Shown: piece by piece, positions 1 through 45,322 of the stretch
Layout of the letters: each line of letters begins with the position of its first letter
Numbering within the stretch: position 1 is the stretch's first letter
From: Clostridia bacterium
GTDB taxonomy: Bacteria; Bacillota; Clostridia; JAQVDB01
DNA length: 51,637 nucleotides
Reading direction: 5' to 3'
NCBI GenBank assembly: GCA_028698525.1
Contig: JAQVDB010000004.1
Coordinates: 1-51,637, forward strand
The notes under the pieces: model-generated
Told to the model about the DNA's origin: nothing
Seen by the model: only the letters and a program-made list of their open reading frames with translations
Databases searched by the model: none
Position numbers and translations under genes: made by a program

Positions 1-504
1 TAATTCCCCATTTAAATTGGTGCCGATTTCTAAAGTATAAGGCACTAATTTAGATGTTACTTGATCCACATCAGGAAAATCCAACGGTCGATATCCCCCT
101 GGCATATCAACAAATCGCTTTACAAAAGCGTTCTCTGCCGCATATACATCCGGCAAATCTCCTGACCTTGAAGCTGATTGTACTTTTGTCTGATAGTTTC
201 CATCCGTATCTGCCGTAATTTGGTCTTTTACGGTAACGCCGGGATAGGCCTTCTCAAATGCCCTTGCTAATGCAGGACCTTCATCTGAATTAAAGTGCCA
301 AAAAGTAAGTGTACCTGTCAGTTCTTTATTTCCGTCGCTTTCATCTGGATCAGTCTCCTGCTCCGCTTGGTCCGTATCTATTTGCTGGTCTGTTTCACTT
401 TGCTGTGCATCATCGGTAGTTTCTGTTTGGCCACAAGCTGTAAACAATGCAAACATCAGACTCAAACATATAAATGAAGCTAAAATCCTTTTGAAAGACT
501 TCAT
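1..504 (-). CDS. Sugar ABC transporter substrate-binding lipoprotein (N-terminal part only)
   Basis: The gene starts at an ATG behind a GGAGGAGTG ribosome site and runs off the left edge, so only the first 168 residues are visible. It opens with a lipoprotein signal peptide: a Lys/Arg start, a hydrophobic core, then LFTAC with the lipidated Cys at about residue 24. A long acidic Gln/Asp/Glu/Thr linker follows, typical of Gram-positive solute-binding lipoproteins. The mature start, LTGTLTFWHF, with downstream YPGVTV and DLPDVYAAE, matches family-1 extracellular solute-binding proteins that deliver oligosaccharides to ABC permeases. It lies downstream of, and on the same strand as, a LacI-type regulator, and the two promoters share an operator motif, so sugar-inducible expression is likely. 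The actual sugar cannot be read from the sequence. Confidence 0.85.
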   Translation of the reverse strand, partial: MKSFKRILASFICLSLMFALFTACGQTETTDDAQQSETDQQIDTDQAEQETDPDESDGNKELTGTLTFWHFNSDEGPALARAFEKAYPGVTVKDQITADTDGNYQTKVQSASRSGDLPDVYAAENAFVKRFVDMPGGYRPLDFPDVDQVTSKLVPYTLEIGTNLNGEL

Positions 505-3645: not shown

Positions 3646-4437
3646 CTATACTATATTTCGTGAAAAATCATCCATATCTTTACATGATTTTAATTCTGAA
3701 CACAACAATTTCTGTGCAAAAAGATTAATTCCAATTGCCCCTAATGGTGCTGTAATCAATATTGATAATACTGCAACAGCTAACATAAGGTCTCCTGATT
3801 CTACCCCTAGAGATAATGGAACTGCTCCCATTGCCGCTTGCACAGTAGCCTTTGGTATATAAGAAATAACACAAAATAATCTTTCCTTCCAATTTAAATC
3901 TGTGCCCAATACAGAAATAATAACTCCTATACTTCTTCCTAATAACCCAATTAATATAATTATAATACCCATTCCTCCTGCATTAATAGCTACCTTGATA
4001 TTTACTTGGGCTCCTACCAATACAAATAGTAATATCTCTGCAAAAACCCATATTTTATTAAATTTTACCGCTAATCGTTCTCCTACATTAGGCATTTTTT
4101 CTACTATGATAAAACCTATGGTCATAACTCCCAATAGAGATGCTATTTGTATTTTTGTTTTTAATAAATTTTCTAACTCAGTAAGTAAAACTGATAAACC
4201 AAGTATAAGTAAAACCTTTTTAGTATCCCGTATATGATATGTTTTAAAAATTTTCACCAATATAATTCCAATAATGATACCGGTTATAATGCCCAACAAT
4301 ATCGATATTGGTATACTCAACACTTGTATGCCAATATTCACATGCGAACTGCTATATAGACCTAGAAAAACGCTGAATACAGTAATAGCAAAAACATCAT
4401 CAATAGATGACCCTGCTAGTATGCTGCAATACTTATG
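3646..4437 (-). pseudogene. Cation/proton antiporter, N-terminally truncated remnant
   Basis: The open frame begins right after an in-frame stop at 4438-4440 and reads directly into a mid-protein segment, ILAGSSIDDVFAITVFSVF, which carries the paired acidic residues of a CPA-type sodium/proton antiporter membrane helix. The rest gives several more membrane segments ending in LSILITAPLGAIGINLFAQ. Members of this family are usually about 390 residues, so roughly the first third, with the translation start, is missing. Internal ATG/GTG codons exist (the frame from 4341 would give 231 residues), but such a product would lack the first half of the transporter core. The neighbours are an ACT-domain gene and a REP-type transposase, so rearrangement is a likely cause. 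Confidence 0.7.
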
Positions 4438-4890: not shown

Positions 4891-4940
4891 GTGTCACGGG
4901 GACGTTTTTTGTGTGTCACGGGGACGTTTCGTTCGTCACG
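4891..4940 (+). repeat. REP-like repeat, two units (left side of transposase gene)
   Basis: Two tandem copies of GTGTCACGGGGACGTTT occur at 4891-4907 and 4913-4929. The second extends through TTCGTTCGTCACG to form a 27-base unit with imperfectly complementary ends. The same unit occurs in inverted orientation at 5734-5761 and again at 8803-8885. The transposase stop codon lies at its edge. Confidence 0.8.
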
Positions 4941-5694
4941 TTTTCCTCACTGCCCTTTGAATAATTCCACGCCCTATTCCTAACACTCTACTCAGTTGCC
5001 TTATACTCGCTCCAGTGTACTGTTTGATATTATAAATTAATTTATCTCTCTGCCTTTTTGGCATTTTATTCATTGCATCTATTCTATATCTAGTTTTTAT
5101 CTTACGTTTTAATTCATAGTCCGAATATTTTTCTTTTTCTTCATATTCGAGACACTTATCATCATTTAACTCATTCATATATTTCTCAAAACTATTTTTA
5201 TGTTCAAAATAACCAACCACTATATCAGTATCAATATCTACTTTTTTTCCATTATATCTTTGTATATATTGGTAATAACTGCTCCATCTATATTCTTCAA
5301 TTTTATCCGTTATCTTTGCTTTTATAGGATTTTGGTGTATATATCGTGTTACTACAATCAAATAGGGCTCGTTTTCTACAGGCTCACTTCTAAATCTATT
5401 TTGAAACAAGTGCCCCTCTCTCGCATATTTATCGTTATACCATTGCACATAGCTAACTGCAATTCTCTTTATAATTTTACCTATTTCTTCACTCTCTTTT
5501 ATTAATAGATGTACGTGATTAGACATTAAACAGTATGCATATATAAAAAACTGGCTCTTTTGTCTTGCCTTAAAAACAGCTTGTATAAATTTTTCTCTAT
5601 CCTCATCGTCTCCAAATATTTTAGATCTGTCTATCCCCCTTAACATAACATGATAAATCCCGGTTTTACTTCTCTTTCTCCTTTGCCTAGGCAT
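4936..5694 (-). CDS. REP-associated tyrosine transposase (Y1/IS200-like, RAYT)
   Basis: This is a Y1_Tnp domain protein. It starts RQRRKRSKTGIYHVMLRGID and has the HUH metal motif in CLMSNHVHLLIKE. The candidate nucleophile tyrosine is in AVSYVQWYNDKYAREGHLFQ, followed by RYIHQNPIKAKI and WSSYYQYI. The C-terminal 60 residues hold a helix-turn-helix, SIRQLSRVLGIGRGIIQRAV, as in longer RAYT proteins. Such enzymes cut and move single-stranded REP hairpins. Its gene is bracketed by inverted copies of one 27-base repeat (4913-4939 and 5734-5760), and further copies lie 3 kb away. The ATG at 5694 is preferred because AGGTGA lies just before it. The protein looks intact. Confidence 0.88.
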   Translation of the reverse strand: MPRQRRKRSKTGIYHVMLRGIDRSKIFGDDEDREKFIQAVFKARQKSQFFIYAYCLMSNHVHLLIKESEEIGKIIKRIAVSYVQWYNDKYAREGHLFQNRFRSEPVENEPYLIVVTRYIHQNPIKAKITDKIEEYRWSSYYQYIQRYNGKKVDIDTDIVVGYFEHKNSFEKYMNELNDDKCLEYEEKEKYSDYELKRKIKTRYRIDAMNKMPKRQRDKLIYNIKQYTGASIRQLSRVLGIGRGIIQRAVRKT

Positions 5695-5727
5695 TTTTAT
5701 CACCTAACTTTGATTTAACATCTATCG

Positions 5728-39420: not shown

Positions 39421-39450
39421 AAAAAAGCTGAGAGGATATCTCTCTCAGCT
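39421..39450 (-). terminator. Terminator of the SipW/TasA cluster
   Basis: AGCTGAGAG and CTCTCAGCT pair with a short loop, and a T run follows on the minus strand. It begins at the stop codon of the last gene of the cluster. Confidence 0.9.
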
Positions 39451-40144
39451 AGTTTTTACTTTTAACTGCCATCTTGGTTCCTATCAAAGCCAATATAAAT
39501 CCCATTGCATATATTAATATAGATGTTTTATCACCTGTTTTGGGGATACCTTTTTTATCTGCTCCTTCCTGGCTTTCGGGAAACTTTATTCCTCCAATAG
39601 GCACTTCTTCATCTTCAATATCCACTATTTCATCTGGAGAAGTGAGGGATTGAGCGGTGAATATCCACCTTACATCAACGGTTTTCCCTTGGAACTCATT
39701 CCCTGTTTCACGGCCTGGCAGATATACTTCAGCTAAAAGATGCTTGTGGTCATTTTTGTTTATTCTACCTAAACTTATATTAGATCGTGCAAAATCTGTC
39801 ATGGAGCCATCAAAAATTAAGGTTCCATCATAATTCACTTTAAGTTTAAGTTGATTAAAAAGATCATATTCCTGTTCTTCCCCTACTCTTTCTGCCCTCA
39901 TATATAAATCAAATGGATCTCGATATACACTTTTTATGCTTAACATAGCTGTCTTGGTGTCCCCGGGATTTAAATTGTTTAAATCGAAAAATTTCTCACC
40001 TTGCGGTTTTACTGCAATACCGTCTTGACTACCTATAATCTCTAAATCTGATGCATTTGCTTTCTGAAAGTTGATGGGTAGCAGTACAATTAAAAAAGAC
40101 AATATAAATATAGTTGCTCCTAAACATAAACCCCTTTTTATCAT
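39449..40144 (-). CDS. Secreted TasA-like protein with sortase-type anchor
   Basis: A signal peptide (RGLCLGATIFILSFLIVLLP, cleavage near ANAS) precedes a beta-rich domain (FFDLNNLNPGDTKTAMLSIK) with the N-x-x-P-G-D motif of camelysin/TasA-like proteins. The C-terminus has an IPKTG sortase-like signal, a hydrophobic helix and a positive tail (AVKSKN). It is probably linked to the cell wall. Its gene is the last in the cluster after tasA-like and sipW. No sortase gene is in the window. Confidence 0.8.
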   Translation of the reverse strand: MIKRGLCLGATIFILSFLIVLLPINFQKANASDLEIIGSQDGIAVKPQGEKFFDLNNLNPGDTKTAMLSIKSVYRDPFDLYMRAERVGEEQEYDLFNQLKLKVNYDGTLIFDGSMTDFARSNISLGRINKNDHKHLLAEVYLPGRETGNEFQGKTVDVRWIFTAQSLTSPDEIVDIEDEEVPIGGIKFPESQEGADKKGIPKTGDKTSILIYAMGFILALIGTKMAVKSKN

Positions 40145-40184: not shown

Positions 40185-40766
40185 TTAATGGGCTGTACCA
40201 AATTGTTCCACACCTGTCGGTAAAACTTCTAAATCCCATACATCCTTATATGCATCGTTAGACGCCTGTACAGCTTGGGCATCCACCTTAATTGTCAAGG
40301 TAGCATCTTGATAATCATTGCCTGTAGCATCCCCTATGAGCTCAACCTTAGTCAAAAGATTATTTGTCTCATCACCTTGATTTAAGATATCTTTATAATA
40401 GTAATATCCATCGTCAGGCAATCCATCTTGGTCTTCATCAAAGAATAACCAGTCTTGTGTGTTAAGGTATAATTTAACATTGTCTACTGATTCATCATTG
40501 CTCCAAGTAGGTGTAAGGGCGACCCTAACATATGTAGCTTTTGAACCATTGCTTATAACGCTCACCTCTTTATCGGTCACATCACCGGGATTCCAGTTTT
40601 CTATATCCTGGAAATCGTGTTCATTTACTTCCACCTTGACACTACCTGCGGTAAATTTATTAAATACTGGATCAGGGATATTGGTGAACCACGCCATGGT
40701 ACCTCCTATCACCAACAAGGATGCCAATGCAACCAATGAAATTATCAAAACTATTCTCTTTTTCAT
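40185..40766 (-). CDS. TasA/camelysin-like protein with SipW-type signal peptide
   Basis: The N-terminus, IISLVALASLLVIGGTMAWF, ends with the GTxAxF pattern of SipW-dependent signal peptides. The mature part has FTAGSVKVEVNEHDFQDIEN, then WNPGDVTDKEVSVISNGSKA and ATYVRVALTP, a jelly-roll-like fold as in TasA matrix fibre subunits. It probably forms extracellular fibres or a matrix. It lies between the SipW gene and a sortase-anchored relative, 41 bases from the latter. Confidence 0.85.
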   Translation of the reverse strand: MKKRIVLIISLVALASLLVIGGTMAWFTNIPDPVFNKFTAGSVKVEVNEHDFQDIENWNPGDVTDKEVSVISNGSKATYVRVALTPTWSNDESVDNVKLYLNTQDWLFFDEDQDGLPDDGYYYYKDILNQGDETNNLLTKVELIGDATGNDYQDATLTIKVDAQAVQASNDAYKDVWDLEVLPTGVEQFGTAH

Positions 40767-40785: not shown

Positions 40786-41319
40786 TTATTTTTTTATATT
40801 CCTAAACTTTATAAATAAATCTGGCAATACAATTATCGCAAGCATGATGATGGTTAGTGCGACAAAACCTATCTTGGTTTTTAAAAAATCAAAAATTCTA
40901 CCTATGTAGGGTATACAAAATACTACCTTACCCAACAATCGGTTGGATTCTACCTGTAAAGGGTCTGGTGTATCATTGGCATCTCCTTTTGTTGTAAAGC
41001 TTATCCCAGTGTGATTTTCAATCCCTACCACTCTGTGAGTTACAGCCTCTGAACTTTTTCCGGAATATGTTATTATGTCTCCCTCTTTAATGTTGTTATA
41101 GTGTACGCCTTTAACCAAGATAAGACTTCCAACCCTTATAGTAGGGCTCATGCTCCCGCTTTTCACCACATACATTCTATAGTCATTTAACGATAGGATT
41201 TTATTCGGATCAAATTCCTTTATCAGATAGAAACCAACTATCAAGCCAATAATTATAAGCGCTAGAAACGCCAATTTACTCACTACTGGAAATATTCTGT
41301 TTTTGCATCTATCAAGCAT
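40786..41319 (-). CDS. sipW: Signal peptidase I, SipW (ER) type
   Basis: This 177-residue membrane protease has the catalytic Ser in YVVKSGSMSPTIRVGSLILV and the His in AVTHRVVGIENHTGISFTTK, which replaces the Lys of ordinary type I peptidases. The TKGDANDTPDP motif and two membrane helices (residues 13-30 and 150-170) are typical. It should cut the SipW-type signal peptides of the neighbouring TasA-like proteins. Its start follows 16 bases after the vWA gene. Confidence 0.92.
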   Translation of the reverse strand: MLDRCKNRIFPVVSKLAFLALIIIGLIVGFYLIKEFDPNKILSLNDYRMYVVKSGSMSPTIRVGSLILVKGVHYNNIKEGDIITYSGKSSEAVTHRVVGIENHTGISFTTKGDANDTPDPLQVESNRLLGKVVFCIPYIGRIFDFLKTKIGFVALTIIMLAIIVLPDLFIKFRNIKK

Positions 41320-41335: not shown

Positions 41336-43627
41336 TCAATTTAAAAGCCTTACATTGAATCTATTAATTACTTCATCTTCGTCATAGAACCATTTATCAT
41401 TGACTTTCTTATTCGTTATAGTCATACTTACATCCAAATTCTCCCTGGTTATAACAACTATATCCTGATCTTCACCTAGTTTTTGGAAATTCATAGGCAC
41501 AACCTCTTTTATTGTATAGCTGCCGGGTTTCAGGTTATTTATTGTAGCCGTTTCTCCATTTTGCAATAGCACTGCCCACTTTCTATCTTGAGGACCGTAA
41601 ATCCAAATGGAAAACTTCCTGTCAGTGTTCTCATTTTGGACAGTTTTGGTTATGGTCAAGCTACCTTTTTTCACTTTAACAAGAACTGTATCCTGCTTTG
41701 TGCATCCGTATTGATCTGTAACTGTTATTGTATAAGTTGTATCTTTATCCGGGTTTACTGAGGGATTTTGTCCTGTGGATTCCCATTCCGGGTCGGTATC
41801 ACAGGTCCATTTGTAATTGTATGGAGGATATCCCCATGTTACCTGGAGGTTATCTCCTATTCCGATAGTATCTCCCCATATTATCTCTCTGTCCGGCCCA
41901 GCATCTACATTGAGAGGAGACTGAACATCCACTTTAGGTATTGGGAAATCCTTAGTCTGCCCTTGGTTGTCATTCACATCAGTATAATTCAGTCTTGCCC
42001 AATCATTGGTAGGCACATCTTCTCCACCTGGAAAAGTCCTTTTAGCCTTTATACTATAAGTTAAATTAGCCTCATTGATTATAGTCCCCGGAGCCCATGT
42101 AATGGTGCGTGTGCTTTCGTCATACTCTACTGCAGATTGCGGATCAGTTTGAAAACTGTCCTGCACTAAATCAAAATGTTCACTTATGACATCTGTCACA
42201 ACTGCATCTTTAGCAGAATGACCAAGCTGTTCCGATATATCATCGTATATATCAGAAAGGTCGGCGGCAGAAAATGTCTCATAATAACCAGCGTTTTGTG
42301 CCCGTCGAAGGGTATCTCTAGCAACTGCCAAACTCACCTGAGGAACCTCGTTTAAAAGTCCTACCGTAAACACCCTAGCTATATCAAAACAGCTCTGCCC
42401 TGCTTTATAAGCAGCCTCGGTATGATCATTATGCTGGGCAGGTTCATTAGGCCCATAGTAATTGCCTATACTTGAAGTGGGAACGCCGTCAGTCAACATC
42501 ACTATAACTTTATTTGCATCTGACCTTCCATCAGCAGTCATTAGATTCCTTGCCCGTACAAAACCTGCCTCTGTATTCGTTCCGCCATCCGGGACTATAT
42601 TGTCTATAGCATTCTCCACATCATTTATATTGTTTTCAAAACCACAATTAATTGTAGTATCTTTACCTAAATCTCCTACAAAACCTGGAGGCCACCACGC
42701 CCACTTCCCCTCATAAGCATAACTCACCACCGCCACCCTGTTATTAGGATTTTCCAACACCTTTTGTACAAAACTTCTGGCAGCCTGTTTAGCATAATAC
42801 ATGGCTGAAGGGCTGCCTGAATTCATGCTTCCTGATCTGTCTAAAACCAGTATTACATCAATAGGTTTGGGAGGAGGGGTCCCTGTTATGTTCAGATTTA
42901 CCTCATAGGTTCTGCATCCCGGTATAGCATGGGCTTCTTTGTCCACTTGGATTGTATCTGGATATTGAACACTGTCTAATTGAACGCTTTTAGTCTTAAC
43001 CGAATTTGCTTCCGTGCTATCAGTAGCTATCGGGCCTTTGCTGTTAATTGTTGATTCATCTTCTTCAATAAACCAGTTAGGACATACTTTGGTTATAACC
43101 TCGTCTTTTCCATCTACTCTTCGTCCTAAATATCGTCCACTGGCTAAAACTCTATTTGAAATAGATTTTCCTCGATAAATTGACGGTATGCTATATGCTA
43201 TCTCAAACTTGTGCTCTGCTTCTACAGTCAATGTCTCAATTTTCTTTTCCATGCCTATAAGCGTGTCCTTTATTACTACATCCTCTAGATCGACATTCCC
43301 ATCGTTTATAATCTTTATTGAATATTTTGCTGTATCCCCTGCACGGTATAAATCCTGTTTTGCAACAATATTTATCTTAAAAGAAGGATTTGGTTGCTCG
43401 GGCTCTTGTTCTTGTTCACATTGCTGTTCCTGCTTATCATCGTCCTTTTGAGCTAACTCTTCCGTTTGAGATAACTGCCCATCCGGTTCTGTTGTTTCTA
43501 GGCTCAACAATTGTTCTGATGATAACTCCGGACTTGATTCGCTACCATAAGAAACTATGGGAAACCCTATCGATCCGATCAAAACTGTTAATATTAAATA
43601 GACCAACGATACTTTTATTTTCCTCAT
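41336..43627 (-). CDS. Large secreted von Willebrand factor A-domain protein
   Basis: This 763-residue protein has a signal peptide, then an acidic Gln-rich low-complexity stretch (residues 35-80), a DUF11-like repeat (RAGDTAKYSIKIINDGNVDL, EDVVIKDTLIG) and a vWA domain from about residue 255 with the MIDAS motif VLDRSGSMNSGS and MLTDGVP. After it come a second DUF11-like domain, a PKD/SprB-like segment (WGYPPYNYKWTCDTDPEWES) and a SpaA-like domain (GSLTITKTVQNENTDRKF). No LPXTG is seen at the C-terminus. It could be an adhesin exposed on the surface. The ATG at 43627 follows GGAGGTGATACC. Confidence 0.85.
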   Translation of the reverse strand: MRKIKVSLVYLILTVLIGSIGFPIVSYGSESSPELSSEQLLSLETTEPDGQLSQTEELAQKDDDKQEQQCEQEQEPEQPNPSFKINIVAKQDLYRAGDTAKYSIKIINDGNVDLEDVVIKDTLIGMEKKIETLTVEAEHKFEIAYSIPSIYRGKSISNRVLASGRYLGRRVDGKDEVITKVCPNWFIEEDESTINSKGPIATDSTEANSVKTKSVQLDSVQYPDTIQVDKEAHAIPGCRTYEVNLNITGTPPPKPIDVILVLDRSGSMNSGSPSAMYYAKQAARSFVQKVLENPNNRVAVVSYAYEGKWAWWPPGFVGDLGKDTTINCGFENNINDVENAIDNIVPDGGTNTEAGFVRARNLMTADGRSDANKVIVMLTDGVPTSSIGNYYGPNEPAQHNDHTEAAYKAGQSCFDIARVFTVGLLNEVPQVSLAVARDTLRRAQNAGYYETFSAADLSDIYDDISEQLGHSAKDAVVTDVISEHFDLVQDSFQTDPQSAVEYDESTRTITWAPGTIINEANLTYSIKAKRTFPGGEDVPTNDWARLNYTDVNDNQGQTKDFPIPKVDVQSPLNVDAGPDREIIWGDTIGIGDNLQVTWGYPPYNYKWTCDTDPEWESTGQNPSVNPDKDTTYTITVTDQYGCTKQDTVLVKVKKGSLTITKTVQNENTDRKFSIWIYGPQDRKWAVLLQNGETATINNLKPGSYTIKEVVPMNFQKLGEDQDIVVITRENLDVSMTITNKKVNDKWFYDEDEVINRFNVRLLN

Positions 43628-43784
43628 AAACGGTATCACCTCCATTCATCCTCAAATTTAGTGTTTTTAAGCCCTGAAAAATGCAGTCAATTGCTCGTTC
43701 TACCCTATATGCCATGCTTGATTAGATGATAACATTCTGTCGTTTCAAGTCTCGCTCAAATAGACTTCAACCTAATTAAAAAAA

Positions 43785-43821
43785 AATCAATTTGTAATTT
43801 TAAACCAATTACAAATTGATT
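43785..43821. promoter_or_regulatory. 15-bp inverted repeat before the vWA-SipW-TasA operon
   Basis: AATCAATTTGTAATT (43785-43799) and AATTACAAATTGATT (43807-43821) are perfectly complementary with a seven-base spacer. The site is about 160 bases upstream of the vWA start and five bases from the regulator's terminator. It could be an operator or a second hairpin. Confidence 0.5.
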
Positions 43822-43825
43822 ACAG

Positions 43826-43852
43826 AAAAAATCCCGGTAAAACCGGGATTTT
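43826..43852 (-). terminator. Terminator after the BTAD regulator
   Basis: AAAATCCCGGT and ACCGGGATTTT pair with a very short loop and a T run on the minus strand. It lies at the end of the regulator remnant. Confidence 0.9.
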
Positions 43853-45086
43853 AAGCAAACTTTTTTGTGGATATTATCGATCGAAATTTAAATTGTAAAA
43901 CAAACAAATGATCTTTTACCTTATCTTTAAAGCTCTTCTCAATTCTTTTGCTTATCATGGTTAAATTATCTCGTTCAATCTCTGATAGAATAGCGATCAC
44001 TTGGCTTTGGTTCCAAAAAGAAAAAACATCTCCTTTTCTCAATCGAAAGAGCAATACCTGTTTTAATTTATCCATCGCCCAATTTAGCTTGTCAGAGGGT
44101 GGATCTATATTATCCGAACAAGAAATTGTTATTAAGCATAAACAGGAATTGGCTCCGTACCGTATGCCTCTTCTTCTTTCTAGATTATACAGAAATTTAA
44201 AGTAATCTATGTCGCAAAACAATGCTCCTTCCCATTCTTCCAGCTGTTCCACCAGTCTTTTTTCAATAAAAAACAAATCGCTGATTTCTTTTTCCTCATT
44301 TTCTGTTTGTATCTTTTTATATATCCTTTCCATGGAATGAGAAGGTTTTATATCTAGTTCTTTATACAACTTATATGTAATATATTCATAATGGCTCATT
44401 GCTTGTTTGGTTTGACCTGTTTTCAATAGAGCTTCCATATAAAAAATATTCAATACTTCCTCATACGGTTCAATCATCAGAACTTCTTCGCAAATTTCTA
44501 TAATATCATTATCTCTATTATAAGATTTTAAATTTTCTATAAATTTTATTATAGACTTAATATATATTCAATTATATCGATTTCTTATAGGTATAATCCA
44601 GTCACCACAATTACGCCCCTCCATATATTCTCCTCTATACAAGAATATAGCCTGTCTATATCCTTTTGCGTCCAAATAACCTGATTCACGGTTTTTATCC
44701 GCTTTATCAATAATCATTTCAAATATTTCATAGTCTATTATGCACTTTTTCCCTACATTAAATATATAATATCCATTGGAAAAATAAATATCGAATAAAA
44801 CCTCCGATATTCCAGTTTTGCGTTGGAGATGCTCTAACATTTTTCTAAGTCTAAAAATATGCGTCCTAAGAACATTTTTAGGATCATTAAAATCTTCTTG
44901 CTCCCAAAGGTCATTCATAATAGTATCGGGCAATAATTTTCTACCTTTAAAAGAAACAAAATATTTCAATAAATCTAGAATCCTGTATGAGCGGCCCATG
45001 TCATCCAATAGAGAACTGCCATTATATCGGATATCAAAGCCTCCAAAGGTTAATATTTCTACTACCCCTTGTTTTGTCGTCTTCAT
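43851..45086 (-). pseudogene. BTAD/SARP-type activator interrupted by one in-frame TGA
   Basis: The 5' part (45086 to 44568) encodes a winged-helix domain (VEILTFGGFDIRYNGSSLLD, RKLLPDTIMNDLWEQEDFND, NVLRTHIFRLRKML) and the start of the BTAD domain, ending WIIPIRNRYN at a TGA at 44568-44570. The following 30 codons stay open in the same frame (IYIKSIIKFIENLKSYNRDN), joining the second part from 44477 (EALLKTGQTKQAMSHYEYIT, YKELDIKPSHSMERIYKKI). Reading across the TGA gives one complete BTAD domain with no frameshift, plus a 110-residue tail. A C-to-T change of an Arg CGA codon would explain it. It sits just upstream of the SipW cluster, which it probably once activated or still does. Confidence 0.75.
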
Positions 45087-45290
45087 TCTCCTCTCATCCC
45101 TTCGCATATTTTTCCGTTTACACCAAACATCAACGCAAAGTACTACATTACACACCACTTGTAAAAATATTCATAATCAGGGTTTTTATCTATATATTTG
45201 CTTTATAGGTATATTATATCAAATTTGGGAACTATAATAAAATCTGTTCATCCATATTTATAAATAATATCAATACTCCTGGATAAAGCA

Positions 45291-45322
45291 TAATAACCGG
45301 AAGAACTAGTCAACCGGTTATT
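45291..45322 (-). terminator. Terminator of the ferritin-like gene
   Basis: TAATAACCGG and CCGGTTATTA form a perfect ten-base stem, with the stop codon region in the loop. The tail is only modestly T-rich. Confidence 0.65.

Follow-up and report, generated by a model that had tools for sequence, protein, structure and literature searches.

An in-frame TGA in a SARP/EmbR-like regulator gene beside a SipW/TasA cluster of a Clostridia bacterium

Introduction

Two open frames that follow one another upstream of a SipW/TasA gene cluster raise the question of whether they are one regulator gene cut by a stop codon and, if so, how the cut arose and what it would mean for the cluster. They lie in a window of 51,637 nucleotides, the whole stretch of DNA that we analyzed, which is taken from a draft genome of a Clostridia bacterium (assembly GCA_028698525.1, contig JAQVDB010000004.1). 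A sequence-only reading had described the frames as an activator gene split by a single TGA, and had offered a recent nonsense mutation, a phase-variation-like event, low-level readthrough, or a sequencing error as possible causes.

A single frame with a single internal stop

The regulator gene is coded on the minus strand, from ATG 45086 to TAA 43851, and its sole break is the TGA at 44570-44568, codon 173 of the 411 in the joined frame (Table 1). The two ORFs (45158/45086..44568 and 44477..43851, minus strand, with GTG 45158 as an alternative start of the pre-stop ORF) had been said to share one frame and to be parted by 30 codons and one TGA. Their coordinates verify this, since 44567-44477 equals 90 nucleotides, or 30 codons. 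The frame is free of stops from 44567 to TAA 43851, the ATG of the second ORF (44477) coming 30 codons after the TGA, and at the base composition of this part the chance of 238 stop-free codons is about 1e-10.

The window holds three same-frame neighbor pairs in which both open stretches reach at least 100 codons, the regulator pair included. One other pair consists of two genuine separate genes (DUF1538 / P-II), so that the evidence lies in the span of a domain across the stop and not in the adjacency of the frames. In the joined frame, a single BTAD match crosses the stop (residues 118-260, profile positions 2-146 of 146, E 9.6e-16). When the halves were searched separately, only Trans_reg_C was recovered from the first and profile positions 68-146 of the BTAD from the second. 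Because the open stretch is improbable and the BTAD match spans the stop, the split-gene observation is correct and goes beyond chance. The claim that a single TGA interrupts what was ancestrally one gene is sustained by this match and by the uninterrupted genes of relatives described below.

Table 1. Features of the regulator gene and the adjoining cluster (window positions, or residues of the joined protein where stated).
Feature	Position	Strand	Basis
Regulator gene, one ancestral frame, 411 codons + TAA	43851..45086	-	domain matches, predicted fold
Regulator domains (residues)	OmpR-type winged helix ~9-111; BTAD 118-260; degenerate GGDEF ~290-403		
In-frame TGA, codon 173, inside helix 162-188 of the model	44568..44570	-	sequence, alignment, predicted structure
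Pre-stop frame of 172 codons, with the winged helix and the start of the BTAD	44571..45086	-	ORFs, domain matches
Post-stop frame, 238 codons + TAA: remaining BTAD (TPR-like helices) and degenerate GGDEF	43851..44567	-	
Pair of strong hairpins with a T run after each, at the regulator end (tandem terminators)	43785..43855	-	
769-aa surface protein, first cluster gene: VWA, GBS104-like tip-pilin Ig domain, DUF11	41336..43645	-	
SipW-type signal peptidase	40786..41319	-	TIGR02228 over cut-off
TasA/BsaA-type SipW-dependent matrix protein	40185..40766	-	TIGR04090, PF12389
231-aa secreted LPXTG-like protein, C-terminal PKTGD and membrane segment	39449..40144	-	motif by eye; NCBIfam below cut-off

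Elsewhere in the window, a Na+/H+ exchanger frame (3646-4341, minus strand) matches only positions 175-371 of a 375-position profile and is missing its N-terminal half. An ACT-domain gene occupies the place of the missing half, and a transposase-like ORF (4936-5703, labeled by eye) lies beyond.

Identity and domain organization of the regulator

Judged by its domain matches and modeled fold, the joined protein is a regulator of the SARP/AfsR/EmbR type, in which an OmpR-like winged helix and a BTAD are followed by a C-terminal degenerate GGDEF. The N-terminal winged helix (PF00486) scored 32.1 bits against a cut-off of 26.2. The BTAD directly after it (PF03704), the domain that the stop interrupts, reached 58.9 bits in the joined frame only. 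A structure model of the joined frame, with the stop replaced by an arbitrary residue, was confident (mean pLDDT 88.1, pTM 0.61) and showed the winged helix, the helices of the BTAD, and an alpha/beta domain at the C-terminal end. In this predicted structure, residue 173 (the stop) falls within one long BTAD helix, 162-188. Among solved structures, the best matches were AfsR and EmbR for residues up to 260 and diguanylate cyclases for the C-terminal domain, and Foldseek ranks 1-6 were all held by SARP-type structures of AfsR and EmbR.

A scan of 26 family members found the BTAD in all 26, Trans_reg_C in 25, and GGDEF (PF00990) in 20 at E<=1, the best of these at 2.7e-06; example homologs of this three-domain family are L126:5995-7233 and L064:5858-7102. 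The window's own regulator did not reach a PF00990 match at E<=1. The GG(D/E)EF signature by which an active diguanylate cyclase would be recognized is missing from all 26 members, and we infer that the C-terminal domain is inactive, possibly nucleotide-sensing, and presumably a sensor. The winged-helix/BTAD type assigned by the sequence-only reading is therefore supported, with the addition of a degenerate GGDEF that it had missed. No other BTAD gene was found in the genome.

Homologs and the codon at the stop

Regulator homologs (E<=1e-20) occur in 34 of 391 genomes of the class, the genome of the window included. None of the 33 found among the 390 other genomes searched has an internal stop, which disposes of the possibility that relatives all carry two separate proteins here. 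We aligned 27 of the 33; of the other six, two (L006 and L007) are partial matches and four lack a locus. One truncated homolog (L048) was excluded from the stop-column count, so that 26 homologs cover the column. All 26 have a sense codon (Arg 11, Ser 5, Lys 3, Thr 3, Asn 2, Met 1, Asp 1). A second collection of 17 named loci, among them Lutispora, Alkaliphilus, Tepidanaerobacter, Clostridium sp. Cult2, and Caproiciproducens, of which at least 6 are probably identical to records of the class survey, gave a sense codon in each of the 16 relatives that cover the column (Arg 14, Met 1, Lys 1). The position is thus permissive, admitting Ser, Thr, Lys, Asn, Met, and Asp besides Arg, the most frequent residue. 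Arg is encoded by several codons, and CGA, the codon that had been predicted, is used by none of the 26 aligned homologs and one of the 16 named relatives.

Since relatives have a sense codon and the alignment shows no gap beside the stop column, a single substitution accounts for the stop. A frameshift pair was considered and rejected, there being no indel relative to the homologs. The closest of these are only about 42-45% identical to the window's regulator, and the genome is the sole member of its order in the collection compared, so that the comparison spans distant relatives only.

One homolog (genome G355, L048:1450-2043, minus strand) is truncated at nearly the same place. Its open frame of 197 aa is 46% identical to the window's over residues 9-169 and ends in a tail of unrelated sequence; a search of the surrounding 16 kb did not recover the second half of the regulator, and the contig carries no SipW gene. 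Given the unrelated tail and the contig without SipW, this homolog looks like a relic, and its independent lack of a second half indicates that the regulator gene can be lost. A further genome (G321) has a 275-aa form near a contig end.

Constraint after the stop

A branch-length test on a fixed tree comprising the window and 25 homologs (L048 and L053 were left out, as they were from a second alignment of this size) revealed no faster evolution of the second half. The window's terminal branch measured 0.898 before the stop and 0.583 after it, a ratio of 0.65 that ranks 18 of 26. Columns conserved at 80% among the other sequences were kept in 23 of 26 cases before the stop and 20 of 23 after it, the near-conserved residues changed after the stop being 202, 213, and 245, with an equal number changed before it. 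Furthermore, the second half contains no stop, with about 6% of its possible substitutions being of the kind that would create one. Relaxed constraint, which is expected only of an old pseudogene, was not seen. The absence of decay leaves three readings of the TGA, as recent, as an error, or as tolerated, which these results do not tell apart; the intact second half is equally expected from a sequencing error or from functional readthrough or a functional split.

Decoding of UGA

UGA is read as a normal stop by the known machinery of this organism, to judge from its gene content. RF2 was found over cut-off, all SelB matches were below cut-off, and the one tRNA-Sec match over the gathering score was identified as tRNA-Ser by ARAGORN, on which grounds selenocysteine was rejected. 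A suppressor tRNA was also rejected: the anticodon TCA occurs in none of the 47 tRNAs read from this assembly, rated 97% complete. With RF2 present, no SelB over cut-off, and no UGA-reading tRNA, neither selenocysteine insertion nor reassignment of UGA is indicated. The readthrough proposed earlier consequently finds no support in a suppressor tRNA or a selenocysteine system over cut-off, though a low basal leakiness may exist. The predicted RNA structure downstream of the stop is not unusual (z -0.99).

At ATG 44477 the anti-SD duplex energy is -1.9, compared with a random-position median of -1.5 and values of -5 to -14 for most neighboring genes (one neighbor is at +0.6). No ribosome site is thus apparent at this ATG by duplex energy, and re-initiation without one may still occur. 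Phase variation finds no support: positions 43600-45300 contain no tandem repeats, the inverted repeat found sits in the terminator, and the difference from relatives is a single substitution.

The adjoining SipW/TasA cluster

The cluster begins about 0.2 kb downstream of the regulator on the same strand. The tandem hairpins that close the regulator gene have a z of -7.6 together, one of them being a perfect 15-bp inverted repeat, and because of these terminators the cluster probably has its own promoter. The adjacency pointed out by the sequence-only reading is present here and is kept in several relatives. Eighteen other genomes carry the regulator together with a SipW over cut-off. In five of them (G156, G192, G148, G384, and G048) SipW lies on the regulator's strand no more than 5 kb downstream, and in the remaining 13 it is farther off, upstream, or on other contigs. 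Since the intact gene adjoins SipW/TasA clusters in several relatives, the role of cluster activator may reasonably be proposed for it, and on this gene-order evidence the regulator is likely to switch on the adjoining cluster.

Origin of the stop

We consider a recent nonsense substitution at codon 173 of a single SARP/EmbR-like regulator gene to be the probable explanation: relatives carry a single frame and the stop is unique to the window's genome, the pattern of a pseudogene made by nonsense mutation. The stop looks like an ordinary kind of recent loss-of-function mutation or a single-base assembly error. The latter is the main rival, a consensus base error or mixed-strain artefact that would leave the true gene uninterrupted, and we hold it to be possible though rather unlikely. 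It agrees with a draft assembly of 136 contigs, with a second half that is intact and not accelerated, and with a single substitution whose stop recurs in no relative. Against it, the few genes of the same genome that were inspected (SipW, TasA, RF2) have no other internal stop, and in short-read assemblies a substituted consensus base is less common than a genuine nonsense mutation.

An open and conserved second half with an ATG 30 codons past the stop would also suit two cooperating polypeptides, a 172-residue DNA-binding part and a remainder re-initiated near 44477. This is improbable given that the cut falls within a helix of the predicted BTAD fold, that the anti-SD energy at the ATG is near the random median, and that no relative is split likewise. 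Low-level UGA readthrough, which would yield a little full-length activator and keep the cluster off in most cells, fits the intact second half, and bimodal expression is reported for the related sipW-bsaA operon of Clostridium perfringens, under another regulator (PMC7395162). We think it quite improbable: the genome has neither a suppressor tRNA nor a SelB match over cut-off, the sequence downstream of the stop is without significant structure, and the stop is shared by no relative. A similarly slender chance attaches to the idea that the TGA is a fixed control point, at which rare readthrough or re-initiation gives the whole SARP-GGDEF activator in a few cells; the SipW/TasA fiber cluster would then have bet-hedged expression. 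Finally, the short N-terminal product of a real stop could be the working form, a small SARP, as might be read from the open N-terminal frame that G355 keeps without a second half. The G355 contig lacks SipW and the BTAD is severed mid-helix, which makes this the least credible proposal, with hardly any weight.

Should the stop be the nonsense substitution that we favor, translation would end in the middle of the BTAD, and the 172-residue remnant, without the remaining BTAD and the GGDEF-like domain, would not work as a full activator. No paralog would be available to replace it, and the adjoining cluster would be deprived of its dedicated regulation. The stop may in this way silence the SipW/TasA cluster.

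Comparison with known systems

AfsR (8hvr, 8k60; profile match over query 23-259) and EmbR (2fez, 2ff4; over query 10-261) have a winged helix followed by a BTAD, as here. At the C-terminal end EmbR has an FHA domain and AfsR an NB-ARC/TPR part; the family of the window's regulator, unlike both, ends in a degenerate GGDEF. Foldseek links this part to the diguanylate cyclases of the GGDEF family (PF00990), whose signature motif is absent here. SARP proteins with such a terminal domain beside SipW/TasA clusters in several Clostridia are the more useful by-product of the analysis, and with them the control of SipW/TasA fibers by a cyclic-nucleotide-like signal becomes a testable idea. In the open-access literature we found no paper on this regulator family or on control of SipW clusters by a BTAD protein, which is no claim of absence from print.

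In Tepidanaerobacter sp. GT38 and G156 the gene order is nearly that of the window, on one strand as here: regulator, surface protein, SipW, SipW-dependent proteins, and LPXTG-like protein. Their regulators are uninterrupted, unlike the window's, and their first surface protein is acidic and of about 500 aa (family assigned by eye), whereas the window's is the 769-aa VWA protein. In G156 a sortase-like ORF (labeled by eye) comes next after the LPXTG-like protein; in the window, a different ORF follows 39449-40144, the protein with the PKTGD-type sortase-like tail.

The sipW-bsaABCRSD operon of C. perfringens resembles the window's cluster in combining SipW, a BsaA-type matrix protein, and a linked regulator, which there is the two-component pair BsaR/BsaS instead of a SARP (PMC7395162). 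Strain SM101 is reported to have insertion sequences within its sipW operon, and to make much less BsaA (PMC7395162). If the stop in the window is real, it would add to the natural cases in which a biofilm matrix loses its dedicated regulator, and would be comparable to the insertions in the SM101 operon.
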